The notes under the pieces: model-generated
The model's input: the letters and a program-made list of their open reading frames with translations, nothing else
Told to the model about the DNA's origin: nothing
Database searches by the model: none
Part shown: one piece after another, positions 6,413 through 51,265 of the stretch
How the letters are laid out: each line of letters starts with the position of its first letter
Position numbering within the stretch: the first letter of the stretch is position 1
Translations under genes and position numbers: made by a program
Assembly (NCBI RefSeq): GCF_000423365.1
Contig: NZ_AUHV01000002.1
Location: 853,270 to 917,269, forward strand
Reading direction: 5' to 3'
DNA: 64,000 nucleotides
Source: Maritalea myrionectae DSM 19524
GTDB lineage: Bacteria > Pseudomonadota > Alphaproteobacteria > Rhizobiales > Devosiaceae

Positions 6413-6417
6413 GGGCA

Positions 6418-6930: not shown

Positions 6931-6942
6931 GGGCCTAAAAAG

Positions 6943-8022
6943 ATGACCCCTAAGTTTCACACACTGACGATTTCAAAAATTGAAGAACTGACACCAGACG
7001 CAAAAGCGATTAGCTTTGCCCTTAATGACGATTTACGCGACGCTTATGCGTTCAAGCCGGGGCAATATTTAACCCTGCGCAGCACGATTGGCGGCAAGGA
7101 TGTGCGTCGGTCTTATTCCGTCTCCTCTCCCCTCGGTTGCACCGACCTGACGGTGGGCATTCGCCGGGTGGAAGATGGCGTGTTTTCCAGCTTCGCCGCC
7201 AACGATCTTAAAGTGGGCGACCAGCTTGAGGTGATGACCCCTGACGGGCGTTTTGTCGCCGATATTGGCGGCATGAAAAAGGCGCTGTTGATCGCCGCAG
7301 GTTCCGGCATCACACCGATGATGTCCATCGCGCAATCCTTGTTGGAAGGCGATGACGAGGCGGAAGTGACCTTGGTTTATGGCAACCGCGAAACCGGCAC
7401 CATCATGTTCCGCGAGCAACTTGAGTTTTTGAAAGACCGGTTTATGGATCGCTTCACGCTGATCCATATTCTCAGCCGTGAAGATCAGGACGTGCCGATT
7501 TTGAATGGCCGTATTGATGCGGATAAAATCAAGGCCTTGGTGAACACAGGTGCGATTGATCCCAAAGCCGCCGATGGCGTGTTTTTGTGCGGCCCCGGCG
7601 AAATGATTGAAGTGGCCCGCGAAAGCCTTGAAGACATGGGCGTGGCGCACGACAAAATCCACTATGAATTGTTCACCCCCGCCGATGGCCAAACCCCACG
7701 CAAAGCGCCCACCAAGGCACAACGCGAAGCGGCGGAACAGGGCGTGAAGGTCGAAGTGGTGCTGGATGGCACCACCCGCAGCTTCACCCTCTCCAATCCG
7801 GAAGACACAGTACTGGAAGCCGCGCACAAGCACGGGCTGGAACTGCCCTTCTCCTGCAAAGGCGGCATGTGCTGCACCTGCCGTTGCAAAGTGGCGAAAG
7901 GCAGCGCCGAAATGGATGTGAACTATTCACTCGAACCGTGGGAAATTGAAGCCGGCTTCACCCTCGCCTGCCAAACCCGCCCCACCAGCGACGAACTGAC
8001 GCTGGATTTCGACGAGAGCTAA
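6943..8022 (+). CDS. paaE: 1,2-phenylacetyl-CoA epoxidase reductase PaaE
   Basis: 359 residues with three modules in order: an FAD-binding barrel with RRSYSVSSP near residues 50-58, a nucleotide-binding domain with AAGSGITPMMS near residue 120, and a plant-type [2Fe-2S] domain at the C-terminus with CKGGMCCTCRC and a last Cys in LACQTRP. The enzyme passes electrons from NADPH to the PaaABC epoxidase. It closes the paaABCDE operon and is followed directly by a strong intrinsic terminator. Confidence 0.96.
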   Translation: MTPKFHTLTISKIEELTPDAKAISFALNDDLRDAYAFKPGQYLTLRSTIGGKDVRRSYSVSSPLGCTDLTVGIRRVEDGVFSSFAANDLKVGDQLEVMTPDGRFVADIGGMKKALLIAAGSGITPMMSIAQSLLEGDDEAEVTLVYGNRETGTIMFREQLEFLKDRFMDRFTLIHILSREDQDVPILNGRIDADKIKALVNTGAIDPKAADGVFLCGPGEMIEVARESLEDMGVAHDKIHYELFTPADGQTPRKAPTKAQREAAEQGVKVEVVLDGTTRSFTLSNPEDTVLEAAHKHGLELPFSCKGGMCCTCRCKVAKGSAEMDVNYSLEPWEIEAGFTLACQTRPTSDELTLDFDES

Positions 8023-11900: not shown

Positions 11901-12319
11901 AGGGCGTTGCCATGCTTCAAGGCATCGCCAGAACGGTCGACGCCGGGGCCCTTGCCGTACCAGATACCGAACACACCATCGACGGTCTTTTCCGGATCGC
12001 TGGCGACTTCTTGCGTGCCGATCACCGCCGTGGCGGCCAAATCTTCATTGATGGCGGGGAGGAAATCAATTTTGTGCTCATCCAGCACTTTTTTGGCTTT
12101 GCCTAAAGCCTGATCATACGCGCCTAGGGGTGAGCCGCGATAGCCGGAAATGAAACCAGCGGTATTGAGGCCATTCGCCTGGTCAATTTTGGCCTGCTCA
12201 ACGGGAATACGCACCAGAACGTCGGTGCCAGACAAAAAGACCCGCTCGCCCACCATGCCGTGGCGCAGTTCATAATCAGGATAAGCGAAAATATCGCGTT
12301 TAAGCGTTGTTAAATCCAT
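8933..12319 (-). CDS. Fused indolepyruvate (aryl-2-oxoacid) ferredoxin oxidoreductase
   Basis: 1128 residues from ATG 12319; agggggacatg upstream gives better spacing to this ATG than to the one at 12322. Domains in order: an N-terminal transketolase pyrimidine-type region (FISGYRGSPLGAYD), a TPP-binding domain (CSGCPHNRST, GIGCHYMASWMDRDTGG, about residues 420-470), a ferredoxin-like segment with CEGCGDCSVQSNC near residue 626, and a gamma-type domain (GVGGTGVVTVGAVLA near residue 716). It is the single-chain IorA/IorB fusion common in alpha- and betaproteobacteria. The family decarboxylates arylpyruvates from Trp, Phe and Tyr to aryl-acetyl-CoA. Proximity to paa genes makes phenylpyruvate to phenylacetyl-CoA an attractive role. 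An Lrp-type regulator is divergent. Confidence 0.9.
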   Translation of the reverse strand: MDLTTLKRDIFAYPDYELRHGMVGERVFLSGTDVLVRIPVEQAKIDQANGLNTAGFISGYRGSPLGAYDQALGKAKKVLDEHKIDFLPAINEDLAATAVIGTQEVASDPEKTVDGVFGIWYGKGPGVDRSGDALKHGNALGASKHGGVIAFFGDDHGCVSSSMPHQSDQAGEHYMMPVLHPAGVADYIPFGLYGFAASRYTGAWIGFKTISEVLESSAAIEVPEPRRFKDPEDYTPPPFGLNHDPATSFGPVLEQKLLARLDAMRAFAKANPIDEVAFGAKQPKIAIVAVGKAFADLMQTLRDLDISEAKAKRMGLGVYKVGLVWPIEPTGYQHFMAKAEKLLVVEEKRAVVETQLKELFFNQRNFTIIGKKDLEGAPLIPEAGELRPSILAQVVHEYLDLEGLPPSASPAPTLDEIDVAGRVPYFCSGCPHNRSTKLPEGSTALPGIGCHYMASWMDRDTGGIVQMGGEGVNWIGMESYTGKKHIFQNLGDGTYFHSGMMAIRQAIAAKANVTYKILYNHAVAMTGGQDVDGELSVEAIVAQLRAEGVERIALVSDKPERFASGLMRGKGLSLDHRKNLDAIQTELRDIPGVTALIYDQGCATEKRRKRKRGLIEDPKKRVFINPDVCEGCGDCSVQSNCISISPVKTKWGVKRTIDQSSCNKDFSCVEGFCPSFVTIEGDEEKATGDQHRRDHLLTHIASLPEPKFATTGEVLITGVGGTGVVTVGAVLAMAAHLQGKGASVLDFMGFAQKGGAVISHLKILEKPGLDTPVRIDKGDANAVIACDLVVANMPEPMACLNPNKTHVIANTKILPTADFVLRGLADFQEEMRLKKLNEGAKQVDYFDVTDLSVALFGDSVFSNMMLTGMAWQKGQIPLDGDAIRRAIELNGKAIEANLNAFELGRLIADQPELFAEDQDAEFEQTLEQLIADRADFLTRYQNAQYADQYRNTVGKVQAAENALGKTGLTEIVAHQLARVMAYKDEYEVARLHLETAHLNEMKGRFKAGAKMTFHMAPPMLNWIKEPNGRPKKFAIPGAVALPSLKLLNAMRPLRGTAFDVFGISKDRRDERKLRDDYIALVEDLAANLTADSHSDAMKKVKLVDMVKGYGVVKEQALEKYNKALAELA

Positions 12320-12432
12320 CATGTCCCCCTCTAATCTAGGAGTATTATCGCCTATTTTGCTTGACAAAGCTGATCAGATTTGCAGGTGATTAACATGATA
12401 AATGCATAATTTTTTCATGATGAGGCGTAATT

Positions 12433-15765: not shown

Positions 15766-16395
15766 CTAAAACTCAATCCCCACTTGCGCCTTCACGCCAG
15801 AGCGGAACGGGTGTTTCACCTGCGTCATATCGGTCACTAGATCAGCGGCCTCGACCAGCTCATCCTTGGCGTTGCGGCCGGTGATGATCACGTGTTTCAT
15901 CTCAGGCTTCTTATCGAGCACCTCGAGCACTTCCTCGATCGGCAGATAATCGTAGCGCAGCACGATGTTCAGCTCGTCGCAAAGCACCATATCGTGCTCA
16001 TCATCCAGAATGAAGTTTTTCGCCTGTTCCCAGGCGGCGCGGGCGGCGTCTATATCGCGTTGACGGTCTTGAGTTTCCCAGGTGAAGCCTTCGCCCATGG
16101 TGGCGAGGGACACTTGATCGGGGAATTTGTCGAGCACGTTGCGTTCGCCCGTGCCCCATTTGCCTTTTACAAATTGCACCACAGCCACTTTCATGCCGTT
16201 GCCCAGGGCGCGGAACACCATGCCGAAGGCGGCTGTGGATTTGCCTTTGCCCTTGCCAGTATGGACGATGGTGAGGCCTTTCTCGATGGTTTTGGTGGCG
16301 ATGATTTTGTCGCGCGCCGCCTTTTTCTTTTTCATTTTTTCCGCGTGGCGGGCGTTCAATTCATCTTCTGTCATATTGTCAGTTTTTTTGCTCAT
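15766..16395 (-). CDS. cobO: Cob(I)yrinic acid a,c-diamide adenosyltransferase
   Basis: 209 residues from ATG 16395, overlapping the cobN stop as ATGA; this start gives the normal CobO length, while upstream ATGs lie deep in cobN. The P-loop HTGKGKGKSTAAFG spans residues 45-58, followed by VVQFVKGKWGTGE and the DELNIVL strand, all standard for the CobA/CobO family. The enzyme attaches the 5'-deoxyadenosyl group to the reduced corrinoid. Last gene of the cobW-cobN-cobO operon. Confidence 0.96.
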   Translation of the reverse strand: MSKKTDNMTEDELNARHAEKMKKKKAARDKIIATKTIEKGLTIVHTGKGKGKSTAAFGMVFRALGNGMKVAVVQFVKGKWGTGERNVLDKFPDQVSLATMGEGFTWETQDRQRDIDAARAAWEQAKNFILDDEHDMVLCDELNIVLRYDYLPIEEVLEVLDKKPEMKHVIITGRNAKDELVEAADLVTDMTQVKHPFRSGVKAQVGIEF

Positions 16396-19300
16396 CCGTT
16401 CCCTCCATCGAGAAATGCATAGATCGAATTGCGTTTTGGCGACCAAAAACCGCGCCGCACCGCCTCGTTAAATTTATCAATCAACTCATCATAGCCATAT
16501 TTGTTGTTGGCCTGAATAAAATCGCGCACCTCATCATTGAGCACAAAGGCTTCAAAAGCCAGATCAAAATGGTGCGACTTGACCGCACCTGTGGTGGCGG
16601 CAAAGGCGAACATATAATCGGTGGTGGCGATGATTTCGAACGCACCCTTATAGCCATGGCGCATGACGCCATTGATCCATTTCGGGTTCACCACGCGGGA
16701 GCGCATCACCTTGGCGATTTCTTCCTCCAGCGTTTTGGCCACTGGGCGCTCCGGGCGCGAATGATCATTGTGATAATTGGCCGGGGCGACCCCCTGCAAA
16801 TGTTTGGCAGTGGCGCTTAGGCCGCCTTCAAACTGGTAATAATCATCACTGTCCAGCAGATCATGCTCGCGATTGTCCTGATTGTGCACCACCGCATCAA
16901 TATTTTTCAGGCGGTTGATCAGTGCGCCGCGGGCCACGGTGCCATTGGCTTTGGTGCCGTAGGCATATTGCCCCCAATTGAGAAAGGTTTCAGCAATGTC
17001 GCCCAGCTCGTTCCAGCGGCCCGAATCCATAATGCCTTGCAGCCCGGCGCCATAGCTGCCGGGTTTGGAGCCAAAGATGCGATAGCCTGCCTCCATGGCG
17101 GCGGCGTCTTCATCACGACCCTTCTGCATCAGCTGCAGTGCATCGCTGCGCATGCGGGCGGCGATCGGGTTCATGTCTTCCGGTTCATCCAGCGCCCCAA
17201 TGGCGCGGATGGCACGGTCAAACAGTTCGATCTGCGCCGGGAAGGCATCGCGGAAAAAGCCTGAAATGCGCAGGGTCACATCCACGCGCGGTCGGTTCAT
17301 TTTCGCCAGCGGGATGATCTCATAACCGCTGACGCGGGTGGAGCCGAAATCCCATTTCGGCTTGGCCCCGATCAACGCCAGGGCTTGGGCGATATCGTCG
17401 CCGCCGGTGCGCATATTGGCGGTGCCCCACACCGACAGGACGATGGATTTGAGATAAAGTCCATGATCCTGAAAATGGCGGGTGACCAGATTTTCGGCCG
17501 ACTTTACGCCCAGCTCCCATGCGGTCTGTGTGGGCACCGCGCGGTTATCGAGCGAATAGAAATTACGACCTGTGGGCAGCACATCCAACCGCCCGCGCGT
17601 TGGTGCGCCGGACGGGCCTGGGGCCACAAATTTGCCGTCTAACCCGCGCAGCAGATTGGCTTTTTCCAACGCGCCGGACTGATCGAGCTTCGGCGCGATG
17701 TCGCTTTGGATCGCGTCGAGAATGGCGCGGGTCGCGGTCCAGTCCGCGTCGGGCTCAATCTCGCCAGCGACAAGGGCAAAGGCGAGTTGTTCCAGCCGTT
17801 CCACCGTGTGGCCCGTATGTCGCCAATTCTCGTCCAGTTGGGACTGCAAGATTTCGGGACGCGGGCCTGTCCATTCTTTGCCCAGCTCGGCCGACAACGG
17901 ATCGAAGCCAAGGCCCAAATCATCGGCCAGCGCACGGATGATGGAATGGTCCTGATCGCGTTCGCTGCCGCGCGGCACGCGGGTGAGCGCCACCAGCAGA
18001 TCGTGCTTCAGCCGCCCCTCTGGTGCTTGGCCAAGTATATGCAATCCATCACGAATTTGCGCTTCTTTCAGTTCACACAAAAAGGTGTCGATGGTTTGCA
18101 AGGCGTCATCGTCTTGCGCGTCACCCAGCCCCATATCGGCGGCCAAGCTGGTGTCGGCGCATAGGTCGAAAATGCGCTGCTTCAAGTCTTTGATGCGGCG
18201 TTGGTCCATGCCGGAGGCGTTGTAAAATTCGTCCGCCAGCGCTTCGAGATCTTTGAGCGGGCCATAGGTCTCAGCGCGGGTGAGCGGCGGGGTCAGATGG
18301 TCGATAATTACCGCCCCGGTGCGGCGTTTGGCCTGTGTGCCCTCGCCCGGATCGTTGACGATGAAGGGGTAAAAATGCGGCAGTTGCGCCCACAGCACGT
18401 GCGGGTAGCACGCGTCAGAAAGCGCGACGGCTTTGCCCGGCAGCCATTCCAAATTGCCATGCTTGCCATTATGGATCAGTGCGTCGGCGGCAAATTGGTG
18501 CTTCAGCCAGAAGTAGCCGGCGAGATAGCCATGGGGCGGCACCAGATCGGGATCGTGATAGATCGCTTCTTCATCCAAATCATAACCACGGGCGGGTTGG
18601 ATCAAGATGGCCGCATGGCCAAATTGGATGGCGGGCAGCTCAAAATGATCATCGCGGAAGAAGGGATCAGTTTCTGGAGTTCCCCACCGTTCTTCAATAG
18701 AATTTTTTAGAGTTTCAGGCAGAATTTCATAGAGTTTTCTATAATTTTCTAGAGTTATCTGCGCCTGACTGATGCCGCGTTTTGGGGCGGCATTGGTGGG
18801 GCCGTTTTGCAGCATTTCAATCAGCGCATTGCCGCTTTCGGGCAATTGATCAAGCGCGTACCCCGCCTCTTGCAAAAACTGCAAAATATTGAGCGTTGAG
18901 GCCGGGGCGTCATAGCCGACGCCATTGGCCAAGCGGCCATCGCGGATTGGATAGTTGGCCAACACGATGCCGACCTTGCGCTCGGCAACTTGCTTTTGCC
19001 GCAAGGTGACCCAGTTTTTCGCCAGCTTGGCGGCGGCGTCAATGCCCGGGACATGGGGTTCGTTGACGGATAGTGGGCACTCGCTGGCATCGTGCCAGAT
19101 GTTTTGCGCCTTGTGGGCAATCAGAATATTGCCTGCACGACCATCCAGTTCCGGCAGCACAATTTGCATCGCCAAATCTTTGGCGTTGAGGCCCTGAATA
19201 TCGTCCTGCCACACTTCCTCAGCACGGCCCGCCTGCACCAATTGCAGGATCGGCGCGTCGGTATGGGCGAAGGGATTATCTTCATCGCTGAGATCATTGA

Positions 19301-20105
19301 CGCCCAGGGCGAAGCCGGTGGCATTGAGGATTACTTGTGGGTCGAACCGCGCGAACAGTTTTTGGGCAAACTGCACGGGTTCCGCCTGTTTCAAGCTGGT
19401 CACCAGCAGGATCAGCGGGGTCAGCCCCTCTTTGTGCGCTGCCCTTGCCATGCGTTCGATGGGGCGCAGATTGCCGCCATCCATCAGGGCGCGATAGGCG
19501 ATGATGGGGGCATATTTTGCGGCGGGGTCGACGGTGATTTCATCTATATTGCTCACCAATTGCCGCTCGTGCCAGATGGCGGCATTGGGGGCGGGTTGTG
19601 GTGCGGGCAACTCTGCTGCTTCGCCTTTGGCGCGGTGACGCAGAAAAGTGAGCAAGCTGCTTAGATTTTGCGCCCCGCCTGCGATAAAGGCTTGATGCAA
19701 TTGGTCGTAAATCTCGCCATCAATGGTCGAGCGGCTTTTCAAATCCGGGTCCGGATTGGCATCGCCGGGCAGAAGTGCCAGTTCGATGCCGCGATCGGCG
19801 CAAATGGCGGTGAGTTGATCGACGCCATAGGTCCAATAGGCCCTGCCACCGAGCACGCGCACCACGATCAATTTGGCATGTTGTGCTGTGTCGTCGAGCC
19901 AGAGGTCGATGGAATAATTGTGACTCAAGCGCATGGTGTTGGCGAGGCGCACATCATCAGCGCCTTGGGCATCAACCGCGCCTGCGAAGGCAGCCAGTTC
20001 GCTATCGGCTGCCGACAGGATGAGCAGCGGCGCAGGCGATTGGCCTAAGTCAATCGCCTCCCCCTCTTGCTGGATGGCCCCAGCTTGGGCTGATAATAAA
20101 TGCAT
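16392..20105 (-). CDS. cobN: Aerobic cobaltochelatase subunit CobN
   Basis: 1237 residues, full length for CobN. Recognisable family stretches include GNLEWLPGKAVALSDACYP, VNDPGEGTQAKRRTGAVIID, TGRNFYSLDNRAVPTQTAW and the closing KWINGVMRHGYKGAFEI. CobN, with CobS and CobT, inserts Co(II) into hydrogenobyrinic acid a,c-diamide using ATP in the aerobic pathway; CobS and CobT are not in this window. It overlaps cobW by one base and cobO by four, so the three are one translational unit under the riboswitch at 21210-21400. Confidence 0.97.
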   Translation of the reverse strand: MHLLSAQAGAIQQEGEAIDLGQSPAPLLILSAADSELAAFAGAVDAQGADDVRLANTMRLSHNYSIDLWLDDTAQHAKLIVVRVLGGRAYWTYGVDQLTAICADRGIELALLPGDANPDPDLKSRSTIDGEIYDQLHQAFIAGGAQNLSSLLTFLRHRAKGEAAELPAPQPAPNAAIWHERQLVSNIDEITVDPAAKYAPIIAYRALMDGGNLRPIERMARAAHKEGLTPLILLVTSLKQAEPVQFAQKLFARFDPQVILNATGFALGVNDLSDEDNPFAHTDAPILQLVQAGRAEEVWQDDIQGLNAKDLAMQIVLPELDGRAGNILIAHKAQNIWHDASECPLSVNEPHVPGIDAAAKLAKNWVTLRQKQVAERKVGIVLANYPIRDGRLANGVGYDAPASTLNILQFLQEAGYALDQLPESGNALIEMLQNGPTNAAPKRGISQAQITLENYRKLYEILPETLKNSIEERWGTPETDPFFRDDHFELPAIQFGHAAILIQPARGYDLDEEAIYHDPDLVPPHGYLAGYFWLKHQFAADALIHNGKHGNLEWLPGKAVALSDACYPHVLWAQLPHFYPFIVNDPGEGTQAKRRTGAVIIDHLTPPLTRAETYGPLKDLEALADEFYNASGMDQRRIKDLKQRIFDLCADTSLAADMGLGDAQDDDALQTIDTFLCELKEAQIRDGLHILGQAPEGRLKHDLLVALTRVPRGSERDQDHSIIRALADDLGLGFDPLSAELGKEWTGPRPEILQSQLDENWRHTGHTVERLEQLAFALVAGEIEPDADWTATRAILDAIQSDIAPKLDQSGALEKANLLRGLDGKFVAPGPSGAPTRGRLDVLPTGRNFYSLDNRAVPTQTAWELGVKSAENLVTRHFQDHGLYLKSIVLSVWGTANMRTGGDDIAQALALIGAKPKWDFGSTRVSGYEIIPLAKMNRPRVDVTLRISGFFRDAFPAQIELFDRAIRAIGALDEPEDMNPIAARMRSDALQLMQKGRDEDAAAMEAGYRIFGSKPGSYGAGLQGIMDSGRWNELGDIAETFLNWGQYAYGTKANGTVARGALINRLKNIDAVVHNQDNREHDLLDSDDYYQFEGGLSATAKHLQGVAPANYHNDHSRPERPVAKTLEEEIAKVMRSRVVNPKWINGVMRHGYKGAFEIIATTDYMFAFAATTGAVKSHHFDLAFEAFVLNDEVRDFIQANNKYGYDELIDKFNEAVRRGFWSPKRNSIYAFLDGGNG

Positions 20106-21154
20106 CAGGAAAAGGCTTTTTCGAGCCGTTCTGAGATTGCGGCCTTATCCAATGGCGATTGTCCAATCACCACCAGCGAGGTTTGTTTTTCCTCGTCGCT
20201 GGTCCAAGGCCGATCAAAATAAGTGTCGACGCGCGGACCGACGGCCTGCACGGAAAGCCGCGCTGGTGCATCTTTAATGGCCGCGAAGCCTTTGAGGCGC
20301 AGAATGTCGAAATCCTTGATCACATTACTGATCGCATTCCCCAGTTGCACCTTGTCTGCCGCAGCGGGCAGGCGAATGGAGAAGCTGTCAAAATCATCAT
20401 GTTCGTGATGGTGGTGTCCATCTTCATGATGATGTTCATGGTGGGACTTACGCCCATCCATATCCAGTTCGCTGCCCGCTTCAATGCCGAGCAAGGCGGC
20501 CATATCAATTTCGCCTTTGTGGGTGCGTACCAGCTTTACACCGTCGCGCAATTCCTTGCGGATGGCGGCTTCGACTTTTTCCAAATCGTCGGGCGACACA
20601 AGGTCGGATTTGTTGAGCAATACGAGATCGGCACAGATCAATTGATCTTCGAACAATTCGCCCAATGGGGTTTCATGGTCGAGCATTTCGTCTTGCTGGC
20701 GCTGGGCATCTACCGCCGCCTCGTTTGAGGCGAAACGGCCCGCCGCAAGGGCTGACGCGTCAGCGACGGTGACCACGCCATCGACGGTGACGTCGGCTTT
20801 GATCTCAGGCCAGTTAAAGGCGCGCACAAGCGGTTGCGGCAGCGCCAAGCCGGAGGTTTCAATCACGATGTGATCTGGGCGATTGTCGCTTTGCAGCAGG
20901 GCGGTGATGGTGGGAATAAAATCTTCGGCCACGGTGCAGCAAATGCAGCCATTGGCCAGCTCGACCATATCAGTTTCGCTGCACGCTTCGTCGCCACAGC
21001 CTTGCAGCACGTCGCGGTCCACGCCGACATCGCCAAATTCATTGATGATCAAGGCGATGCGCTTGCCTTTAGCATTGTTCAACACATGGCGCACAAGGGT
21101 TGTTTTGCCCGCGCCAAGAAAACCGGTGATCACCGTTGCTGGAATCTTTTTCAT
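20105..21154 (-). CDS. cobW: CobW-type GTP-dependent metallochaperone
   Basis: 349 residues from ATG 21154 with aaggagc at a proper distance. G3E GTPase: P-loop GFLGAGKTT (residues 11-19), metal-binding CICC (residues 70-73), NKSD guanine motif, then a His-rich linker (HHEHHHEDGHHHHEHDD) and the CobW C-terminal domain. The family delivers cobalt to the cobaltochelatase using GTP; the position directly before cobN supports cobalt rather than zinc. A cobalamin riboswitch precedes it. Confidence 0.95.
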   Translation of the reverse strand: MKKIPATVITGFLGAGKTTLVRHVLNNAKGKRIALIINEFGDVGVDRDVLQGCGDEACSETDMVELANGCICCTVAEDFIPTITALLQSDNRPDHIVIETSGLALPQPLVRAFNWPEIKADVTVDGVVTVADASALAAGRFASNEAAVDAQRQQDEMLDHETPLGELFEDQLICADLVLLNKSDLVSPDDLEKVEAAIRKELRDGVKLVRTHKGEIDMAALLGIEAGSELDMDGRKSHHEHHHEDGHHHHEHDDFDSFSIRLPAAADKVQLGNAISNVIKDFDILRLKGFAAIKDAPARLSVQAVGPRVDTYFDRPWTSDEEKQTSLVVIGQSPLDKAAISERLEKAFS

Positions 21155-21163
21155 TTTTGCTCC

Positions 21164-21179
21164 TTGAGGCATTTGCCTC
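21164..21179 (-). promoter_or_regulatory. Hairpin abutting the cobW ribosome-binding site
   Basis: On the minus strand TGAGGCA and TGCCTCA form a 7-base stem with a 2-base loop that ends immediately before the aggagc site of cobW. Placed between the riboswitch core and the start codon, it is a candidate for the expression platform, where ligand binding would change access of ribosomes. The structure is read from sequence; the switching role is inference. Confidence 0.45.
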
Positions 21180-21209
21180 ACCGTCCACCCGACGGCATTC
21201 GAGTTATGT

Positions 21210-21400
21210 TGGCGTCGGCAGGTCTCCTGGCTCGCGATTCGAGCGATCTCAACCAGCCTTCCCGAAATTTCAGTGGCACATTGGTTGCGATCTCATCGCT
21301 TACAGTTGCGGGGGCAGCCTTGGATTCGTTCCCCGAATTGGGTCGAACTCACCATGTTCCCTTTTCACTTATAAGGTGCTTTTGCACCCATAAGACCGTC
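21210..21400 (-). promoter_or_regulatory. Cobalamin riboswitch of cobWNO
   Basis: Reading the minus strand, the conserved elements occur in order: an AGGGAA-type 5' element near 21360, CTGCCCCCGCAACTGTAAGC near 21300, GCCACTG near 21272, CGGGAAGG, then the B12 box AGCCAGGAGACCTGCC at 21217-21232. This is the adenosylcobalamin aptamer order. It lies 55 bases upstream of cobW and predicts repression of cobW-cobN-cobO when cobalamin is plentiful. Confidence 0.93.
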
Positions 21401-21437
21401 GCATGAACCTTATGAATTGCACGTGCAGCAAGGGGCG

Positions 21438-22277: not shown

Positions 22278-23582
22278 TTAGTTGAACATTGCGTTGGGCA
22301 ACATGAGTGCGATTTCTGGGAAAATCACAATCAGCGCCAAGGTAACGATCATGGCCAACCAGAACGGCATGATGCCCGCAAAGATGGTTTCGATCTTCAC
22401 ATCTTGCACCACGCTTTTCACAATGAAAACATTGACGCCAACTGGGGGTGAGATAAGCCCCATTTCCAAAACGATCACCATCACCACGCCAAGCCAGATT
22501 GGATCAAATCCGAGACCCACGACCAGCGGGAACACGATCGGCAGGGTGATCACCAAAAGCGACAAGCCTTCAATAAACATGCCCAAAATCACATAGCCCA
22601 GCAAGATGAGCGCCAAGGTACCGTATGTGCCCAAGGCCAAGCCTGCCATGCCCGTAGCGATGGTTGCCGGCAGGTGTGACAGGGAAACGAAGGGCGCAAA
22701 CACATTGGCGCCGATCAAGATGAAGAAGGCCATGCCTGTGGTTTTGAGCGTTTCGGCGCTGACATCATAAAGTGTTGCCCACGTGCATTTGCGGCGGATG
22801 ATCAGCATGAACAAAGCGAAGAAAGCGCCTACGCCTGCCGCTTCGACCGGGGTGAACAACCCGGTATAAATGCCACCGATGGTGATCAACACAATGCCAG
22901 CAATGCCTGTGGCACGAAACAGGCTGGTCAGTTTTTCCTTTGCTGTGAATTTAGGCCCGCGTGGTCCTTCCTCTGGCCAGAAAAAGGTGACCACGGCAAT
23001 GGCCAGCAAAAACATGGTGGTGAGCAAAATGCCGGGCAAAACGCCCGCCATAAACAGGCGACCGATGGATTCTTCGGTGAGCACCGCATAGATCACAAAA
23101 CCAGTCGAGGGCGGAATAAGGATGCCCAATGTGCCACCCGCAGCGATGGACCCGGTGGCCAATTTGGCACCATAGTTGAAACGCCGCATTTCGGGATAGG
23201 CGACTTTGCCCATTGTGATTGCCGAGGCGATGGACGAGCCAGACAAGGCGGCGAAGCCGGCACAGCCAACAATCGTGGCCCCCGCAAGTCCGCCTTTAAA
23301 TCGACCAATCATTTTGTGGGCCGCTTCGAACAAATCACGACTCAGACCCGCTGCCGACGCCAAATTGCCCATGAGAATGAACAATGGAATTATGGTCAGT
23401 TCATAGACGGTGACGGTGGCAAAAACCTGCCCGCTGAGCGTGAAGGCGGCGGCTTGGAAGCCCGACAGAAAGATGGTGCCGACAAAGCCCACCACAAGCA
23501 ATGCGATCGCCACCGGCGCGCCCATTGCTAAAAAGGCGAATAGGGCGACAAAGCCCAAAATACCATATATTTCGGGGCTCAT
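22278..23582 (-). CDS. TRAP transporter large permease (DctM family)
   Basis: 434 residues from ATG 23582, which overlaps the stop of the small permease as ATGA; earlier in-frame ATGs lie inside that gene and are not used. About twelve hydrophobic segments and the DctM motifs GSSIASAITMG and GGTLGILIPPSTGFVIYA identify the Na+-coupled translocating subunit. It works in the inner membrane with the 165-residue DctQ protein and the periplasmic DctP protein upstream. Regulation is likely from the MarR-side control region at 25125-25162. Confidence 0.95.
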   Translation of the reverse strand: MSPEIYGILGFVALFAFLAMGAPVAIALLVVGFVGTIFLSGFQAAAFTLSGQVFATVTVYELTIIPLFILMGNLASAAGLSRDLFEAAHKMIGRFKGGLAGATIVGCAGFAALSGSSIASAITMGKVAYPEMRRFNYGAKLATGSIAAGGTLGILIPPSTGFVIYAVLTEESIGRLFMAGVLPGILLTTMFLLAIAVVTFFWPEEGPRGPKFTAKEKLTSLFRATGIAGIVLITIGGIYTGLFTPVEAAGVGAFFALFMLIIRRKCTWATLYDVSAETLKTTGMAFFILIGANVFAPFVSLSHLPATIATGMAGLALGTYGTLALILLGYVILGMFIEGLSLLVITLPIVFPLVVGLGFDPIWLGVVMVIVLEMGLISPPVGVNVFIVKSVVQDVKIETIFAGIMPFWLAMIVTLALIVIFPEIALMLPNAMFN

Positions 23583-24076
23583 CGCAAGACCCTTTCGACC
23601 AGCAACAGAACGGCGCTTAAGCCGCTGCCCGCGGCAATCGCGTAATAGGAAGGACCAAAGGGCAATTGCAGCAACAAGGTGCTTTCGCCAAAGGTAGCCG
23701 CTTCCAGCGCATTGGAAAAGGCACGCCATGTCAGGTAGCTCAGAATAACAACACCCATGATCGTGACGACCCAATCCAGCAGGTTTTGCACCGCGTTGGG
23801 CAGCATATTGGTGATGGTATCAATGGCGATTAGCCGCCCCGAAAGCACACAGAGTGGCAGGCATATGGCGACGGCAAAGGACAACAATATTTGCGCGTAA
23901 TCATTGGCCCCAAAGATGGGCATATTAAAGAGCGACCGCAGCAGGGCATCAGCAAAGGAAAGCCCCATCAGCATGAACACAAGGGCGGCGCCACAGATCA
24001 CCAATGGCGCCTCCACCCAGCGGCGCCAGGCAGCATTTTGTTGCTGCGCTGGCGCCCCAAATTTTTCGTTTTCCAT
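23579..24076 (-). CDS. TRAP transporter small permease (DctQ family)
   Basis: 165 residues with four hydrophobic segments, the DctQ size. The family stretch FGANDYAQILLSFAVAICLP follows TM2. It partners the DctM subunit, with which it overlaps by 4 bases, and starts 3 bases after the binding-protein gene, forming a three-gene operon. Confidence 0.92.
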   Translation of the reverse strand: MENEKFGAPAQQQNAAWRRWVEAPLVICGAALVFMLMGLSFADALLRSLFNMPIFGANDYAQILLSFAVAICLPLCVLSGRLIAIDTITNMLPNAVQNLLDWVVTIMGVVILSYLTWRAFSNALEAATFGESTLLLQLPFGPSYYAIAAGSGLSAVLLLVERVLR

Positions 24077-24079: not shown

Positions 24080-25096
24080 TTAGTTGCCAGCCAATGCGTC
24101 AACAATCATTTGACCGTCAACACCCTTTTCCTGACCAACTTTTTCGATAAATGCGTCCAGCGTCGGCTTCATCGTTTCCCGGAACTCGGCATCTGCTTCA
24201 CCATCAATCTGGATCAGTTCAACACCACTTTCGCGTGCCAGTTCCAGCCCGGCTTGGCCCGCCTCATAAAAGGCCTGTGCACCGCGGAGGCTCAAATAGC
24301 GCCCTGCAAGTTCGTCCAGTTTCGTTTTATGCTCATCGCTTAGTTTGTCCCAGCTTGATTGGTTCATCAGCAGGTAAAAGCTATCCAACGCAGATGGGAT
24401 ATTGGTTGTGACATATTTGGCGGTTTCATTGAGCTTGTAGGATCGAATGCCTGATGGCCCGATCATAACCGCGTCAATCACACCGGTGTTCATGGCGTTA
24501 TAGGTGTCTGTGGTGGGCATAGACACTGGAATGCCGCCCCAGGCTTTGACCAATTCGGCCATCACCGGGTTCGGCGTGCGGATTTTCATGCCTTGCATAT
24601 CAGCAACCGTGCGCACTGGCTTTTCGCGGGTGATCAATACTGAGGGGTTGTTGGCCCATAGGCCGAGCAACTTCACCTGCGCATATTCATCCTTGATCAG
24701 GTCCAAATTGTCCCACAATGCATGGGTTGCGGCTGTGCCATCCGGAAACAGACCCGGAATGTGTACCATCGCCGTTTTACTGAATTGTTTTGGTGTGTAT
24801 TCAGGAATGCCAAACACAATATCGGCCACACCAGTGACCACTCGTTTATATTGCTGTACGGGGCCTTTGCCCAGCTCACCCGATGGGTAAATGCGGATTG
24901 TCAGTTCGCCATCTGTTGCCGCTTCCAACTGCTTGGCCAATGGCGTCATCACCCCTTGGTCCATTGGGTGCATCGACGGCATAAAGTGCGCCAGCTTCAA
25001 CTCCTCCGCTTGAACTGACACAGCGCCCAACATCAGCCCAACACTGGCCAAACCGACCGAAATGGCCTGTCTAAAATTCGTGAATTCAATTCGCAT
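24080..25096 (-). CDS. TRAP transporter periplasmic substrate-binding protein (DctP family)
   Basis: 338 residues. A signal peptide of about 30 residues ends at SVQA-EELK. The mature protein shows the DctP pattern, including GMKIRTPNPVMAE with the Arg that pairs with a ligand carboxylate, and the long hinge-spanning helix. TRAP proteins of this type import organic acids with sodium. The genomic setting (divergent MarR regulator and reductive dehalogenase) makes a halogenated aromatic acid a plausible ligand, but this is inference; C4-dicarboxylates or other acids cannot be excluded. Confidence 0.93.
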   Translation of the reverse strand: MRIEFTNFRQAISVGLASVGLMLGAVSVQAEELKLAHFMPSMHPMDQGVMTPLAKQLEAATDGELTIRIYPSGELGKGPVQQYKRVVTGVADIVFGIPEYTPKQFSKTAMVHIPGLFPDGTAATHALWDNLDLIKDEYAQVKLLGLWANNPSVLITREKPVRTVADMQGMKIRTPNPVMAELVKAWGGIPVSMPTTDTYNAMNTGVIDAVMIGPSGIRSYKLNETAKYVTTNIPSALDSFYLLMNQSSWDKLSDEHKTKLDELAGRYLSLRGAQAFYEAGQAGLELARESGVELIQIDGEADAEFRETMKPTLDAFIEKVGQEKGVDGQMIVDALAGN

Positions 25097-25124: not shown

Positions 25125-25162
25125 TAGTACTTAACATAGATAGTTATCCATGTTAACTACAT
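25125..25162. promoter_or_regulatory. Long inverted repeat in the TRAP-marR gap, putative MarR operator
   Basis: Two 18-base arms, TAGTACTTAACATAGATA (25125-25142) and TATCCATGTTAACTACAT (25145-25162), are symmetrical at 14 of 18 positions around a 2-base centre. It lies 29 bases upstream of the dctP start and 51 bases upstream of the marR start, suited to control both directions. The symmetry is read directly; binding by the adjacent MarR protein is inferred from the usual autoregulatory layout of that family. Confidence 0.65.
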
Positions 25163-25212
25163 AAAAGAATATGATGTGGGGCAAGTCAACTGGTTTGTTA
25201 TGGAGGCGATCA

Positions 25213-25662
25213 TTGGCTGAGGAATTTACACTTCATAATCGCGTCGGGTTCAAAGTCACCCGGTTGGCGCGGATTATGGAAGCAAAGTTGGAGAAGCAAC
25301 TCTCCGAGCACGGCGTGACGCGCCTCATGTGGTGCGTGTTGCGCGGCGTGGGCATGGAGGGGGTGCATTCACCTTCTGGGCTTGCCGATTATATCTGCAT
25401 CGCGCGGCCAGCTGTTTCACGTCTCCTTCGCGACATGGAAAAGCGCGGCTTTATCGAACGCAACGGCATTGATGACGATAAACGATATCGGGACATCGCA
25501 CTAACACCATTAGGCGAGGAAAAGATGAAAGCGTGCCACGTGTTGGTGCGCGAACTGAACGAGCACTTTGCAAGCAAATTGGACGCGGAAACTTACGCGA
25601 TCATGATGAACGCTATCGACCAAATGACCGAAGGTGAAGACGTAAAATTGATGCGACTTTGA
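25213..25662 (+). CDS. MarR-family transcriptional regulator
   Basis: 149 residues from TTG 25213, chosen because ggagg lies six bases upstream, whereas the in-frame ATGs at 25171-25174 lack a ribosome-binding site. MarR winged helix: LADYICIARPAVSRLLRDME is the recognition region and KRGFIERNGIDDDKRYRDIA the wing. Members bind aromatic or phenolic ligands and are commonly repressors. It is divergent from the TRAP operon and leads the threonine-aldolase/dehalogenase genes, so it may control both. Confidence 0.9.
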   Translation: MAEEFTLHNRVGFKVTRLARIMEAKLEKQLSEHGVTRLMWCVLRGVGMEGVHSPSGLADYICIARPAVSRLLRDMEKRGFIERNGIDDDKRYRDIALTPLGEEKMKACHVLVRELNEHFASKLDAETYAIMMNAIDQMTEGEDVKLMRL

Positions 25663-25691: not shown

Positions 25692-26759
25692 GTGCCAGAT
25701 AGGGAAGCTGTGATTGACTTGCGCTCCGATACGGTGACCAAGCCGTGTGCGGGCATGTTGGCCGCGATGGCTGAAGCACGCGTGGGCGATGATCAATATG
25801 GCGAGGATATTGAAACCAACTTGTTGCAAGACGAGGTGGCGCAGCTTTTGGGCAAGGAGCGCGCGCTATGGCTGCCGTCGGGCACCATGGCCAACCAAGT
25901 CGCCATGAAAACAACAACCCAACCCGGCGATGATGTCATCGTCGCTAAGCAAAGCCATGCGGTGTGGCATGAGACAGGCGGCAGCGCAGCCAATGCGGGC
26001 GTGCAATTCTCCGAAATCGGTGAACAGGGTTGGTTCATTGTGGACGCATTTGACGCCGCCATCAAACCGAAAAACCACCACATCTTTCCGCCCACCACCA
26101 TGGTGCAGGTGGAGCAAACCCACAATCGGTGTGGCGGCACGCTTTTTCCGCCAGAAGTGGCGCAAGAGATTTGCCAATTGGCCAAAGAACGCAACATTTT
26201 CAGTTATATGGATGGCGCACGGCTTTGGAATGCGGCGGTTGCAAGCGGCCAAACGGTTGCAGATTTAGCAGCGCCATTTGATGCCGTAATGGTGTCTTTT
26301 TCCAAAGGGCTGGGCGCGCCCGGCGGCTCTATGCTGGTCGGCGATAATGACTTTATTGAACGCGCCGTGCGCTTTCGGCGCATGTTTGGCGGCGCGATGC
26401 GCCAAACAGGGTACTACGCCGCAACGGCACGATTTGCCTTGTCCCACAACATGGCGCGATTGACAGATGATCACGCCAACGCCAAAGCGCTTGCCGCACG
26501 TTTGGCGGAGTGCCCACACCTCACACTGAACCCCGACAGCGTGCAAACCAACATTGTGGTGTTCGAATTGACAACGGAGGCGATACGCGCGGGCGAGTTG
26601 GTTCGTGCAGCAAAAGCGCATGGTGTTTTGATCAATGCCCTCGGCCGCAACACGGTGCGGCTTGTCACCCACAAAGATGTATCCCGCGCAGATTGTGAAC
26701 ATGCTGCCGATCAAATCATCAAAATCCTTTCCCACCAGCCGATTCCAAACGCGGCATAG
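25692..26759 (+). CDS. Low-specificity L-threonine aldolase family enzyme
   Basis: 355 residues from GTG 25692; the conserved N-terminal motif [11 protein letters not shown] begins at residue 8, so a later start would truncate it. PLP fold type I with the Schiff-base Lys in [17 protein letters not shown] and the HIF/VEQTHN region of beta-eliminating aldolases. The family cleaves beta-hydroxy amino acids to glycine and an aldehyde. It lies 29 bases after marR and ends 12 bases before the dehalogenase, implying co-transcription with it. No metabolic link to dehalogenation is obvious. Confidence 0.9.
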
Positions 26760-26771: not shown

Positions 26772-29700
26772 TTGAAGTATTTTTCGAATAAAAAACGCCC
26801 GTTTCACCTTGGCTCATTTCCGCTGGAGCGGCTTAAGCGCGTCGACCAAGCTGCCCATTTGGACAGGCTACCCAAATTTGAGCAAATGCGGTTTCGCTAT
26901 GATGCAATGCCGGAAAACATCATCAATGCGATGGCGGAAAGCCAGGCGATGCTCGACGCAATCCGCGATGGGTTGGTCAACAAGGCCAAAGCAGAAGTAC
27001 CCAATGATCTGACCGAACGGCAAAACCATTTAAAGGCATTTGGCTATTTCTCTGATGTGGCCATGGCCGGGACATGTGCGTTCACTCCCGAGATGTCGCT
27101 CGACGTGCCGTTTCGCAATCCTGACATTGAACGTCTGGCGCAAAAATTGCGGACGGACCAAACCAAATCACTCGCGTCTGGCGTCGATATGATCATGGCG
27201 GATTTGCGCGATGCGATGAACGCGCCGCCGCGTGAAATGACCCATCATCGGCACGCTCTTGTGTTTCTGGTAGAGCATCCGCGCAAGATTTGGCCGGACG
27301 AGCCCGGTGCTGAGTGGCTGAATGGGGCGCAGGCGCACCGTTCTGCCCTGCGCGCCAATGAGGCCGCTGTGGTATTGGCGCAATATATCAGGCTGCTGGG
27401 TTATGATGCCCGTGCCCACTCCCACTCTACCAGTGATGTGGATTTGAACCGACTGGCTGTGGAAGCCGGGTTAGCAAACGTCGAAAATTGCTGTCTGATC
27501 AATCCGTATTTGGGACCGCATTTTTCCATCGCGGCGGTGACCACCGATTTCGAGTTTGCTCATGATCGTCCATTGGCACCGCTTACAGAACAGCCGAAAT
27601 CTCAGATGAAAGGTTGGGCGTGGCAGCTGGGCTATGGCACCGGCAAAAGCGCGAAGAATGCTGATCCTTATGCGCGCCGACGTTTTATGGATGGTGCCCA
27701 TCCATTTGAAACCTTGAAGCGGGTGGATGAGCCGACCACTTTTATCGATGAAGACCGCGTGCCGCGCGTGCCGAAGCGTACGGATATGTTCGCCCGCTCG
27801 CTTTTTGGCGATATGGGCAAACGCAATCAAGAGGCGTCGCGCGGGGGCAAATATGTGCGCAAATCTGCGCCTTCCATGGCGCAGCGGCGGGCTTTGGGCG
27901 CGTTCGTGCTGTTGCAAGATGGTGAAGCGTCGGAAACACCATCTCGCACAACATCAGATGCGCAGCGAAATGCAGATAATGTAAAAGCCATGTCGCATTT
28001 TTTGGGTGTCGACGCCGTGGGCATTTCGCGTTGTCCTGACTGGACATGGTATTCTCACGACGCGGTGGGCGACCCGATTGATCCGCCGCATGATCAAGCC
28101 ATTTCCATGGTGATCGACCAAGGATATGACACAATGGAAGGGGCCTCTGGCGACGATTGGATTGCCGTATCGCAATCTATGCGCGCCTATTTGCGCTTTT
28201 CGATCTTGGGCAGCATTGTGGCCAAACAAATCCGTTCGCTTGGCTACGGCGCCCGTGCCCATACGGTGATGGATGGTGAAGTATTGCAACCACCATTGAT
28301 GCTTCTGTCTGGCCTTGGGGAAGTGAGCCGCATTGGCGAAGTGATCCTCAACCCGTTTTTGGGGCCAAGGCTCAAATCTGGCGTGGTGACCACCACCATG
28401 CCCCTGACCCACGATAAGCCCATCTCCTTTGGATTGCAGCAATTTTGCGAAAGCTGCAACAAGTGCGCCCGCGAATGTCCCTCCGGGGCGATTACTGCCG
28501 GGCCGAAGCTGATGTTTAATGGCTATGAGATTTGGAAATCAGATAGCCAGAAATGCACCACCTATCGCATCACCAATGAGGGCGGCGCCATGTGTGGTCG
28601 CTGCATGAAAACCTGCCCGTGGAATTTGGAAGGTGTTTTTGCTGAAGCGCCCTTCCTCTGGGCCGCAATGAACATCCCCAAAGCCGCGCCTGCCTTAGCT
28701 AAACTGGATGACGCATTGGGCAATGGCGAGCGCAATTTGGTGAAAAAATGGTGGTGGGACATTGAGCTGCATGAGGATGGTGGCTATCGCCCCACCCCAC
28801 ACAAGGTGAATGAGCGCGATCTGCAAAAGGATTTGGATCTGAAGTTTGAAGACCAAACCTTGGCGGTTTATCCGGCCAATCTGGCGCCGCATCCTTGGCC
28901 ATTTCCCTTCCCCATGGATCGGGAAAAGGGCATTGAAGCCTATCAGGCAATGATCACGGCGGAGCAATATAAGGTAAAGCTGGCGCGGGGCGAGACGGAA
29001 GGATTGGCGCACGAATATCGCATTGAGGGCGACGCGCCGGTGATCCGCGTACAGATCACCAAGGCCGAAGCCATGACCGATAGCGTCACCAAATATGAAT
29101 TTAAAACGCTTGATGGCAGTCCCCTGCCCGAATGGACAGCGGGGGCGCATCTGGACATTGTGGTGGCGCCAGAATTTTTGCGGCAATATTCCATGTCCGG
29201 CGATCCAGCAGACAATTCGAAATATCAAATTGGCGTGTTGCGCGAAGATGAAGGGCGCGGCGGTTCGCAATTGCTGCACCGCATTTTCACTGAAGGGCGG
29301 AAGATTTTTATTTCCAAGCCGATCAATCATTTCCCCTTAGAGGAGCAGGCCAGCAAGAGCTTTTTGATGGGCGGCGGCATTGGGGTGACCCCGATGATCG
29401 CCATGGCCCACCGTTTGCATGCGATTGGCGCTGATTTTGAGTTGCATTATTGCTGCTCGTCTCGCAAAAATGCCGGTTTCTTGGACGATCTAGCGCAGTT
29501 TGAATGGGCGGATCGGGTGCATTATCACTTTAGTGATGAGGGCACGCGTGCCGACCTTGATGCGGTTTTGCGCGACTATCAGCCGGGGCAGCATGTTTAT
29601 TGCTGCGGCCCCGACCGCTTTATGGCCGGGGTGATGGAAAGCGCCGAACGGCACGGTTTTGCCGAAGACGAGCGGCATCTTGAATATTTCAACGTGCCCG

Positions 29701-29987
29701 AGCTGCCCGAATATGAAAACCACCCCTTCACCTTGAAACTGGCCAAGTCAGGCCAAGAATTCCTGGTGCCAGCGGATAAATCCGCCACCGACGTGTTGCA
29801 GGAAAACGGCATTCAGATTGATGTGAAATGCTCGGACGGGATTTGCGGCGTGTGCAAATGCGGTATCGTTTCTGGCGAGGTGGAGCATCGGGATTTCGTG
29901 TTGTCGAAAAAGCAAAAGGAAGACAGCATTATCCTTTGCCAATCGCGCGCGGCAGATCCTGATGGTGTGTTGGAAGTGAATTTATAG
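26772..29987 (+). CDS. Self-sufficient cobalamin-dependent reductive dehalogenase fused to flavin/[2Fe-2S] reductase
   Basis: 1071 residues from TTG 26772 (agagga 8 bases upstream). No TAT or Sec signal, so cytoplasmic and catabolic, like BhbA and NpRdhA. Order: a degenerate copy of the corrinoid core (about 200-268), the catalytic core (about 470-550), two [4Fe-4S] sites (Cys559, 562, 565, 569 and 595, 608, 611, 615), then a phthalate-dioxygenase-reductase-like module with RQYS (804-807), the NAD loop GGGIGVTP (867-) and a [2Fe-2S] centre (Cys1020, 1025, 1028, 1056). Ser469, Tyr473, Lys535 and Arg599 keep the spacing I recall for Ser422, Tyr426, Lys488 and Arg552 of NpRdhA, where they bind the phenol and donate the proton. 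Predicted: NAD(P)H-driven removal of halogen ortho to a phenolic hydroxyl. Confidence 0.93.
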   Translation: MKYFSNKKRPFHLGSFPLERLKRVDQAAHLDRLPKFEQMRFRYDAMPENIINAMAESQAMLDAIRDGLVNKAKAEVPNDLTERQNHLKAFGYFSDVAMAGTCAFTPEMSLDVPFRNPDIERLAQKLRTDQTKSLASGVDMIMADLRDAMNAPPREMTHHRHALVFLVEHPRKIWPDEPGAEWLNGAQAHRSALRANEAAVVLAQYIRLLGYDARAHSHSTSDVDLNRLAVEAGLANVENCCLINPYLGPHFSIAAVTTDFEFAHDRPLAPLTEQPKSQMKGWAWQLGYGTGKSAKNADPYARRRFMDGAHPFETLKRVDEPTTFIDEDRVPRVPKRTDMFARSLFGDMGKRNQEASRGGKYVRKSAPSMAQRRALGAFVLLQDGEASETPSRTTSDAQRNADNVKAMSHFLGVDAVGISRCPDWTWYSHDAVGDPIDPPHDQAISMVIDQGYDTMEGASGDDWIAVSQSMRAYLRFSILGSIVAKQIRSLGYGARAHTVMDGEVLQPPLMLLSGLGEVSRIGEVILNPFLGPRLKSGVVTTTMPLTHDKPISFGLQQFCESCNKCARECPSGAITAGPKLMFNGYEIWKSDSQKCTTYRITNEGGAMCGRCMKTCPWNLEGVFAEAPFLWAAMNIPKAAPALAKLDDALGNGERNLVKKWWWDIELHEDGGYRPTPHKVNERDLQKDLDLKFEDQTLAVYPANLAPHPWPFPFPMDREKGIEAYQAMITAEQYKVKLARGETEGLAHEYRIEGDAPVIRVQITKAEAMTDSVTKYEFKTLDGSPLPEWTAGAHLDIVVAPEFLRQYSMSGDPADNSKYQIGVLREDEGRGGSQLLHRIFTEGRKIFISKPINHFPLEEQASKSFLMGGGIGVTPMIAMAHRLHAIGADFELHYCCSSRKNAGFLDDLAQFEWADRVHYHFSDEGTRADLDAVLRDYQPGQHVYCCGPDRFMAGVMESAERHGFAEDERHLEYFNVPELPEYENHPFTLKLAKSGQEFLVPADKSATDVLQENGIQIDVKCSDGICGVCKCGIVSGEVEHRDFVLSKKQKEDSIILCQSRAADPDGVLEVNL

Positions 29988-30061: not shown

Positions 30062-30739
30062 CTATGCGCTGGCGAAAAGACGTTTTTCAAACAGGTCGCT
30101 ATCTTTGAGATGGTGCGCATTTTTGGCGATGGCCAATGCGCCCAAATCAACCAGTGGCTCGACAATCACCACCAGCATGTAGGCTGCGCCAAAGCTGAGC
30201 ACTTGCGCCACATTTTCAGCGCCGAAACCCTGACCGTAAAAAGCCCAGAACATGACCCAAGCAACGATGCCACCCTGATACGTGGTGGAGAGCTTGAGCG
30301 CCTGTGTGTAGCTGACATCTTTATAGGCGGTTTTTGCGGGAATGATGCGTTGCGCCAAGGCTGACATGGCGAACAGCGGCACCAAAAGCGTTGTGACATT
30401 GATGCCATATTGCGGCAGATCAAATGGGGCAAACAGGAGGCCCTGCAACATCAACCCGGCCAACAGGCCAATGGCGGCAGGAGCTGCACCAAACAATAAA
30501 AGCAAAGTGGAGCCCATGATCAAATGGACCTCTGAAACGCCTACCGGGTGATGGGGCAGCACTTGGAAATAGGCAAAAACCATCGCCGTGGTGATGATTG
30601 ACCGCACGGCCAAGGCGGCGACGCCATCCGCTTTGATCGTGTCCAAAGCGATTTTGGCGCCATAGCCGATGGCGGCGGTGGCGGTTGCATAGCTCAGCAC
30701 CATTTTGGCGCCATCTACAATTCCGGGTTCAATATGCAT
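30062..30739 (-). CDS. CbiM-like cobalt (ECF-type) transporter permease
   Basis: 225 residues from ATG 30739, where gaggaac precedes the start; the open frame continues upstream through the riboswitch but that part is not coding. It begins MHIEPG with His2 in the position used by CbiM/NikM to hold the metal, and has about six hydrophobic segments, with HHPVGVSEVHLIMGST in the core. CbiM proteins import Co2+, usually with CbiN, CbiQ and CbiO, none of which is adjacent. The cobalamin riboswitch upstream supports a cobalt role. It is convergent with the cobalamin-dependent dehalogenase. Confidence 0.82.
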   Translation of the reverse strand: MHIEPGIVDGAKMVLSYATATAAIGYGAKIALDTIKADGVAALAVRSIITTAMVFAYFQVLPHHPVGVSEVHLIMGSTLLLLFGAAPAAIGLLAGLMLQGLLFAPFDLPQYGINVTTLLVPLFAMSALAQRIIPAKTAYKDVSYTQALKLSTTYQGGIVAWVMFWAFYGQGFGAENVAQVLSFGAAYMLVVIVEPLVDLGALAIAKNAHHLKDSDLFEKRLFASA

Positions 30740-30834
30740 TTTGTTCCTCGAACATATTTCACAGGCGCAACGTTTCCCCGTGCGCGTGCGAAGGCTAAAG
30801 ACTGGCTTTCTCATTGGAAAACCGCTTATGCGTT

Positions 30835-31038
30835 CAGGCCGGTCTCCGGACTTGCAAGCATGGTTTTCACCATCGGAGTTCAGCCACCTTCCCATCATCA
30901 TGACAGTGGTTTTTGGCCGGTCCTTAACTTGCCTACCGTTGCGGGGGCAGTGCCGGAATTGATCCCCGAATTGGGTCGATCGCACCAGCTTCCCGTTTCA
31001 CCCAGAGAATCGTTAAACAGCAGATTTCTGGGCACCTG
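30835..31038 (-). promoter_or_regulatory. Cobalamin riboswitch of the CbiM-like gene
   Basis: On the minus strand the elements run GGTGCCCAGAAATC, GGGTGAAACGGGAAGCTGGT, CTGCCCCCGCAACGGTAGGC, ACCACTGTCATGATG with GGGAAGG, and the B12 box AAGTCCGGAGACCGGCC ending at 30838. It is about 100 bases upstream of the start ATG and predicts that cobalt import falls when cobalamin is abundant. A second copy of this class precedes cobW in the same window. Confidence 0.93.
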
Positions 31039-31109
31039 ATCGCCGAAGTAAGCTAGTTAGGCCAAAACAACCTTGTCAATTCCATTTTTTTCTGGTCAAT
31101 CCCATAGCC

Positions 31110-51264: not shown

Positions 51265-51265
51265 G

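Follow-up and report, generated by a model that had tools for sequence, protein, structure and literature searches.

Two reductive dehalogenases that carry a reductase in the same chain, BhbA and JtRdhA, have been reported as active on ortho-halogenated phenols (PMC10463259; for BhbA, also PMC13101508). JtRdhA of the marine bacterium Jhaorihella thermophila, which contains flavin mononucleotide (FMN), [2Fe-2S], two [4Fe-4S], and cobalamin, carries out NADPH-driven debromination in air, with an NADPH:product ratio of 1.0 whether air is present or absent (PMC10463259). There, bromo- and iodophenols are converted, while the chloro analogues inhibit the enzyme without being reduced, and 3-bromo-4-hydroxyphenylacetate is converted as fast as the dibromo-hydroxybenzoate (PMC10463259). 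For the Roseobacter clade, putative homologues of bhbA have also been noted in print (PMC13101508). Here we describe a gene of this kind, rdhA (26772–29987, forward strand), in a 64,000-nucleotide stretch of Maritalea myrionectae DSM 19524 DNA (the whole stretch is hereafter called the window); a literature search pairing Maritalea with dehalogenase found no paper. The product is probably a catabolic reductive dehalogenase of the BhbA/JtRdhA kind, cytoplasmic and self-sufficient, and its gene would belong to a small, presumably inducible module that also comprises a tripartite ATP-independent periplasmic (TRAP) transporter and a MarR-family regulator.

The rdhA frame is uninterrupted from a TTG codon to the stop (1071 codons). 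AGGA is located 8 bases 5′ of the TTG, and the open frame extends just 4 codons further upstream (1075 in total). The assignment of its 1071-residue product as a catabolic reductive dehalogenase fused to a phthalate-dioxygenase-reductase (PDR)-type reductase is based on the open frame, the profile and structure-sequence matches, and the residue alignment, and two parts are clearly seen in it. One is the reductive dehalogenase part (approximately residues 1–737; 26772–28982, forward strand), which was delimited by alignment to NpRdhA of Nitratireductor pacificus and consists of an N-terminal half, an insertion at residues 108–157, and a core with two [4Fe-4S] motifs (Cys 559–615). Another is the PDR-type module (residues 758–1071; 29043–29984, forward strand), which was delimited by alignment to phthalate dioxygenase reductase (2pia) and by its motifs for flavin, NAD(P)H, and a plant-type [2Fe-2S] cluster. 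A preliminary description of this DNA had claimed both a reductive dehalogenase core and a fused reductase of the ferredoxin-NADP reductase/[2Fe-2S] type, and both were confirmed: the NCBIfam model RDH (TIGR02486) matched with 193.4 bits (cut-off 160.35), NpRdhA (4ras) matched residues 2–107 and 158–737 (E 3.5e-163), and 2pia matched residues 758–1068 (E 7.2e-61), with the reductase motifs RQYS at 804, GGGIGVTP at 867, and CSDGICGVC at 1020 and the last Cys at 1056. Since residues 2–107 and 158–737 lie on residues 2–103 and 112–693 of the 704 in NpRdhA, the vestigial N-terminal duplicate of the core also appears to be present.

A scan of genome contigs with the dehalogenase part gave at least 564 confirmed relatives, and the counts among 80 loci given here and below refer to the best 80 of them. 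The insertion at residues 108–157 lies opposite 8 NpRdhA residues, and at least 50 residues occupy that place in all of the 80 loci; it may correspond to the insertion that JtRdhA has over its active site. The eight cysteines that had been assigned to two [4Fe-4S] clusters (559, 562, 565, 569, 595, 608, 611, and 615) all fall on NpRdhA cysteines (512, 515, 518, 522, 548, 561, 564, and 568, respectively). Likewise, Ser469, Tyr473, Lys535, and Arg599, which had been equated with NpRdhA Ser422, Tyr426, Lys488, and Arg552, were each placed by the alignment on the residue named, and Met470 on Met423. The catalytic residues and cluster cysteines coincide when NpRdhA and BhbA are both aligned, and these 13 dehalogenase positions (the eight Cys plus Ser, Met, Tyr, Lys, and Arg) are invariant in the 80 loci and in five of five plasmid loci. 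As for the reductase, one of the four [2Fe-2S] cysteines is found in all 80 loci and the other three in 79, the odd locus reading X at those three, while Y806 is replaced by F in a single locus. The Protein Data Bank titles of the NpRdhA entries include a K488Q variant and a complex with 3-bromo-4-hydroxybenzoate.

These matches also bear on two other readings of the protein. The dehalogenase core is common to PceA (4uqu, E 2.6e-32), and RdhA might accordingly be viewed as a respiratory, membrane-bound, exported enzyme; however, among solved structures the catabolic NpRdhA matches best, an NAD(P)H reductase is fused to the core, and a motif search of the first 60 residues found no twin-arginine motif (RR-x-F-[LI]), in agreement with the earlier claim that an export signal is absent. 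We regard the probability of a respiratory role as negligible. A weak match to TIGR00276 could point to a QueG-like epoxyqueuosine reductase or to some other class III B12 reductase whose substrate carries no halogen, but the 30.2 bits obtained are far from the cut-off of 200 bits, the cut-off of the reductive dehalogenase model is passed, and the residues corresponding to NpRdhA S422, M423, Y426, K488, and R552 are all retained, which makes this reading very unlikely.

As the ligands and catalytic residues are those of the characterised relatives, the same mechanism is the best reading for the catabolic dehalogenase, supported by homology, with JtRdhA as the characterised model. A hydride from NAD(P)H would be passed to the FMN of the C-terminal reductase, and single electrons would then reach cob(II)alamin by way of the [2Fe-2S] cluster and both [4Fe-4S] clusters. 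The phenolic hydroxyl of the substrate, presumably a brominated phenolic acid, would lie near Tyr473-Lys535-Arg599 with the ortho bromine (or iodine) above the cobalt; the carbon-halogen bond would be cleaved, with a proton from Tyr473, and the halide would be released. Oxygen tolerance is predicted after JtRdhA. The preliminary description had the enzyme strip halogen ortho to a phenolic hydroxyl: the ortho position is consistent with the retained residues and with the reported activity of the two fused relatives, but the term halogen should probably be narrowed, our best guess being bromine or iodine, because JtRdhA did not convert the chloro compounds tested (PMC10463259).

The fusion is widespread. 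In each of the best 80 relatives, among which it was examined, the gene is one uninterrupted frame of 1063 codons or more that includes the reductase part. The earlier statement that such self-sufficient enzymes are few therefore holds for characterised enzymes but not for genomes, and RdhA adds an example to a kind of enzyme already known and common in bacterial genomes. By record title, the 80 are mostly Alphaproteobacteria, with a few Granulosicoccaceae and one metagenome-assembled genome (MAG) labelled Flavobacteriales; many of the genera are marine. The copy in this MAG (L089) is nearly the same as that in a Rhodobacteraceae MAG (L080), and the former is therefore probably misbinned. Ten plasmid records also matched, seven of them with one place covering at least 80% of the query, and the BhbA plasmid (50.9%) is among them. 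On the Yoonia plasmid (L013, 7956–11157), rdhA is divided between two frames that overlap near residue 350–371, by a frameshift or a sequencing error; because the frame is broken in the record, this copy was excluded from the full-length alignment, the residue counts, and the tree.

The host genome (3.54 Mb, 99% complete) contains one such fused gene; the second match in it (E 4.9e-6) concerns the reductase part only and is the PaaE gene at 6943–8022 of the window. The whole protein is 92% identical to that of Maritalea mobilis, 92% to that of M. mediterranea, and 80% to that of M. porphyrae. Within Devosiaceae, the dehalogenase part was found (E ≤ 1e-20) in 5 of the 136 genomes searched, namely in the host and four of its five congeners, and the genomes of other genera gave no match at this threshold. 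The absence from one congener and from the other genera, as well as the split Yoonia copy, might be taken as signs of a decayed or unexpressed gene. This is highly improbable, however, for a full-length open frame whose three congeneric counterparts are also open and keep all the ligands.

The genes around rdhA are arranged as follows. The marR gene (25171–25662, forward strand, as listed; an alternative in-frame TTG lies at 25213 behind GGAGG), a pyridoxal phosphate-dependent aldolase gene of the GntG/threonine-aldolase type (25692–26759, forward strand), and rdhA are co-directional and separated by 29 and 12 bases, respectively, and the TRAP transporter genes are divergent from them. The latter, all on the reverse strand, encode the substrate-binding protein DctP (24080–25096), the small permease DctQ (23579–24076), and the large permease DctM (22278–23774); since the listed DctM frame overlaps DctQ, its true start is probably later. 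Between marR and the TRAP genes, pattern search and locus alignment revealed an operator-like palindrome pair (25128–25159), composed of TAGTTATCcATGTTAACTA at 25141–25159 (forward strand) and an inverted copy at 25128–25146 with 3 mismatches. The layout with the divergent TRAP genes and marR adjoining rdhA is found in 7 of the 80 loci (L018, L019, and L022–L026) and on an Aminobacter plasmid, and the palindrome aligns in all seven loci; in L022–L024, one arm pair is altered on both sides (G-C to A-T). A co-directional TRAP permease gene occurs within 100 bp of rdhA in three loci (L027, L061, and L082) and also on the Yoonia plasmid. What is new here is rdhA beside a MarR gene and a divergent TRAP transporter, with a palindrome kept in the loci of the same layout. 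We suppose that the transporter would bring in the halogenated phenolic acid and that the MarR repressor would sit on the palindrome between the divergent transcripts, both of which would be released when the acid is present. With the palindrome pattern at up to 3 mismatches, two matches were obtained in the window and none in 100 window shuffles.

Several observations weigh against this picture and should be considered together. The pattern was derived from the window site itself, so the shuffle control shows only that it does not occur elsewhere by chance. At up to 2 mismatches, the genome contains one site, as compared with two for the reversed control pattern; the palindrome is thus a single local site, unique but not enriched, and not a regulon-wide motif. 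The loci of the same layout are related, so that their agreement is not independent; in the Stappiaceae-type loci L022–L024 the outermost arm pair is lost, and Aminobacter matches only weakly. No sigma-70-like site was detected between the TRAP genes and marR when promoters were scanned for, and the counts of the promoter/terminator scan fall below those of shuffles. In 57 of the 80 loci, matches to MarR and to the TRAP permeases were both absent, and of the 64 loci with 4.5 kb or more of upstream sequence, 8 had both; the uptake/regulator module is therefore a minority arrangement. As for the protein, the AlphaFold model is weak (mean predicted local distance difference test score 66, predicted template modelling score 0.55, Fe-S region below 50). 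A Foldseek search with this weak model placed 14 NpRdhA chains on top (38–39% identity), followed by CYP116B self-sufficient P450s and PDR, a ranking consistent with the domain assignment. The structure alignment took in 32 of the 80 loci and the window protein.

The remaining points on the same side concern the fate of the product. The best PobA match in the host is 30.6 bits against a cut-off of 538.7, and none of the six Maritalea genomes exceeds this cut-off; PF00775 (intradiol dioxygenase) and HpaB gave no match in the host genome at E 0.001, where other hydroxybenzoate routes, such as CoA-dependent ones, were not searched; and no product-catabolic gene was recognised beside rdhA. The sole LigB-family match in the host is of the 4,5-DOPA-extradiol-dioxygenase type (248.7 bits, cut-off 233). 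Thus, the searches for PobA, PF00775, HpaB, and LigB did not reveal in the host genome the protocatechuate-forming and ring-cleaving genes of the BhbA-type halo-hydroxybenzoate pathway. On the other hand, contig 2 encodes both HPPD and HmgA, with a distance of about 4.4 kb between them; they score 399.4 and 709.5 bits against cut-offs of 277 and 510.75, respectively. Taken together, the homogentisate route is a possible outlet for the product, or detoxification a possible role of the enzyme, and as a lead this is a serious rival to growth on halo-hydroxybenzoates, the role reported for BhbA.

In its fuller form, this rival keeps the same enzyme but has it detoxify or salvage tyrosine-type acids that bear bromine or iodine (halotyrosine, halo-hydroxyphenylpyruvate, or halo-hydroxyphenylacetate), with the product passing to the 4-hydroxyphenylpyruvate-homogentisate route or being excreted. 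The gene content just described accords with it, as does the equal rate of JtRdhA on the bromo-hydroxyphenylacetate cited above. However, the HPPD and HmgA genes are not near rdhA, and a pobA homologue lies about 10 bases behind rdhA in two of the 80 loci, L031 and L047 (56% and 53% identical to the pobA of Nitratireductor OM-1), whose dehalogenase parts are about 69–70% identical to that of RdhA. On the plasmid of Nitratireductor OM-1 itself, pobA and an extradiol dioxygenase gene are located 2–4 kb from rdhA on the opposite strand. The pobA genes near rdhA point to 4-hydroxybenzoate as the product in these relatives. On balance, a role in handling tyrosine-type acids is a real possibility for the host, although we hold it to be somewhat doubtful. 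Still more tentative, and in our view rather unlikely as a whole, is the specific proposal that Maritalea and its Stappiaceae relatives share a ligand-induced uptake-and-debromination module for marine phenolic acids that derive from tyrosine and carry bromine or iodine; this module would serve tolerance or the homogentisate route and not the protocatechuate route of bromoxynil degraders. The assignment of RdhA as a self-sufficient catabolic dehalogenase is common to these proposals.

Other features lie close to the dehalogenase module. The aldolase gene was rejected as a part of the system: it had no match in the available flanks of the 80 loci (some of which are short, with none upstream in L066), nor in L014 and L015, where rdhA follows marR and where cobN, cobW, and the TRAP genes remain close to rdhA. 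It is an extra copy, absent from this place in the compared relatives and the second in the host genome, and each of the five congeners has one elsewhere (41–42% identical). Convergent to rdhA is a gene for a CbiM-like cobalt uptake protein (30062–30985, reverse strand), which is over the Pfam CbiM cut-off and below those of the NCBIfam CbiM models; a cobalamin riboswitch (30820–31054, reverse strand, 108.6 bits) overlaps its listed 5′ end. On the other side, cobN and cobW for cobalamin synthesis (16392–21181, reverse strand) are located downstream of a second cobalamin riboswitch (21200–21415, reverse strand), so that the module is flanked by one riboswitch on each side. A conserved link between cobalamin genes and rdhA is nevertheless unsupported: the CbiM-like gene occurs in three of the six Maritalea genomes, and no match was found in L014, L015, L017, or the plasmid loci (L006 and L016 have little or no downstream sequence).

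Further away in the window, a phenylacetate cluster (PaaZ, PaaX-like, PaaA, PaaC, PaaD, and PaaE-like) and an indolepyruvate ferredoxin oxidoreductase (431–8022 and 8933–12367) form an aromatic-acid region 14–26 kb upstream of rdhA. At 49351–53494 (reverse strand), nitrous oxide reductase propeller repeats (49351–51264) and the gene after them, whose product has 4Fe-4S and FMN-binding domains, were read as NosZ/NosR-like. Among the relatives, three genes for a molybdenum hydroxylase follow rdhA in 9 to 11 loci (L088, 11336–14930; L073; L084; examples are from Ruegeria); the enzyme resembles xanthine dehydrogenase/4-hydroxybenzoyl-CoA reductase, and the two proteins scanned fell short of the family cut-offs. 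A sulfatase-family gene, below the curated cut-offs, is found upstream of rdhA in L063 (6312–7985), and its cluster occurs in five loci, in three of them within 1.5 kb of rdhA; this might fit sulfated algal bromophenols.

The locus thus offers a concrete module of transporter, regulator, palindrome, and enzyme in a host that lacks the usual genes for hydroxybenzoate, by which it becomes testable what this common enzyme does in nature, and RdhA is a further candidate for aerobic pollutant debromination. Among the known systems, Ros_A3X954 of Roseobacter sp. MED193 is a marine alphaproteobacterial debrominase, also without a twin-arginine translocation signal (PMC13101508). Its cluster motifs are at 283–294 and 337–345, with other letters, and its identity with the fused MED193 homologue (L044) was ruled out by the differing motif positions and letters (PMC13101508). 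Therefore, the oxygen sensitivity of Ros_A3X954 does not carry over. BhbA of Comamonas sp. 7D-2 plasmid pBHB (WP_015585978) has the same fused layout, the same 13 dehalogenase residues, and 50% identity over the full length. It is, however, far from the window group in the tree, where it was used as the outgroup, its reductase has F in place of Y806 and A in place of G867, and its gene, unlike the window rdhA, is located on a plasmid amid ring-cleavage and tricarboxylate-type transporter genes. JtRdhA was compared with RdhA through its published description. NpRdhA (4ras, 6zxu, and 6zy1) belongs to the same dehalogenase family and has the same catalytic residues, but its chains of 704–725 residues carry no fused reductase and lack most of the stretch corresponding to 108–157. 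Finally, the phthalate dioxygenase reductase 2pia and the CYP116B self-sufficient P450s (6kbh and 6laa) share with RdhA the C-terminal electron-supply module, which is joined there to another catalytic partner.

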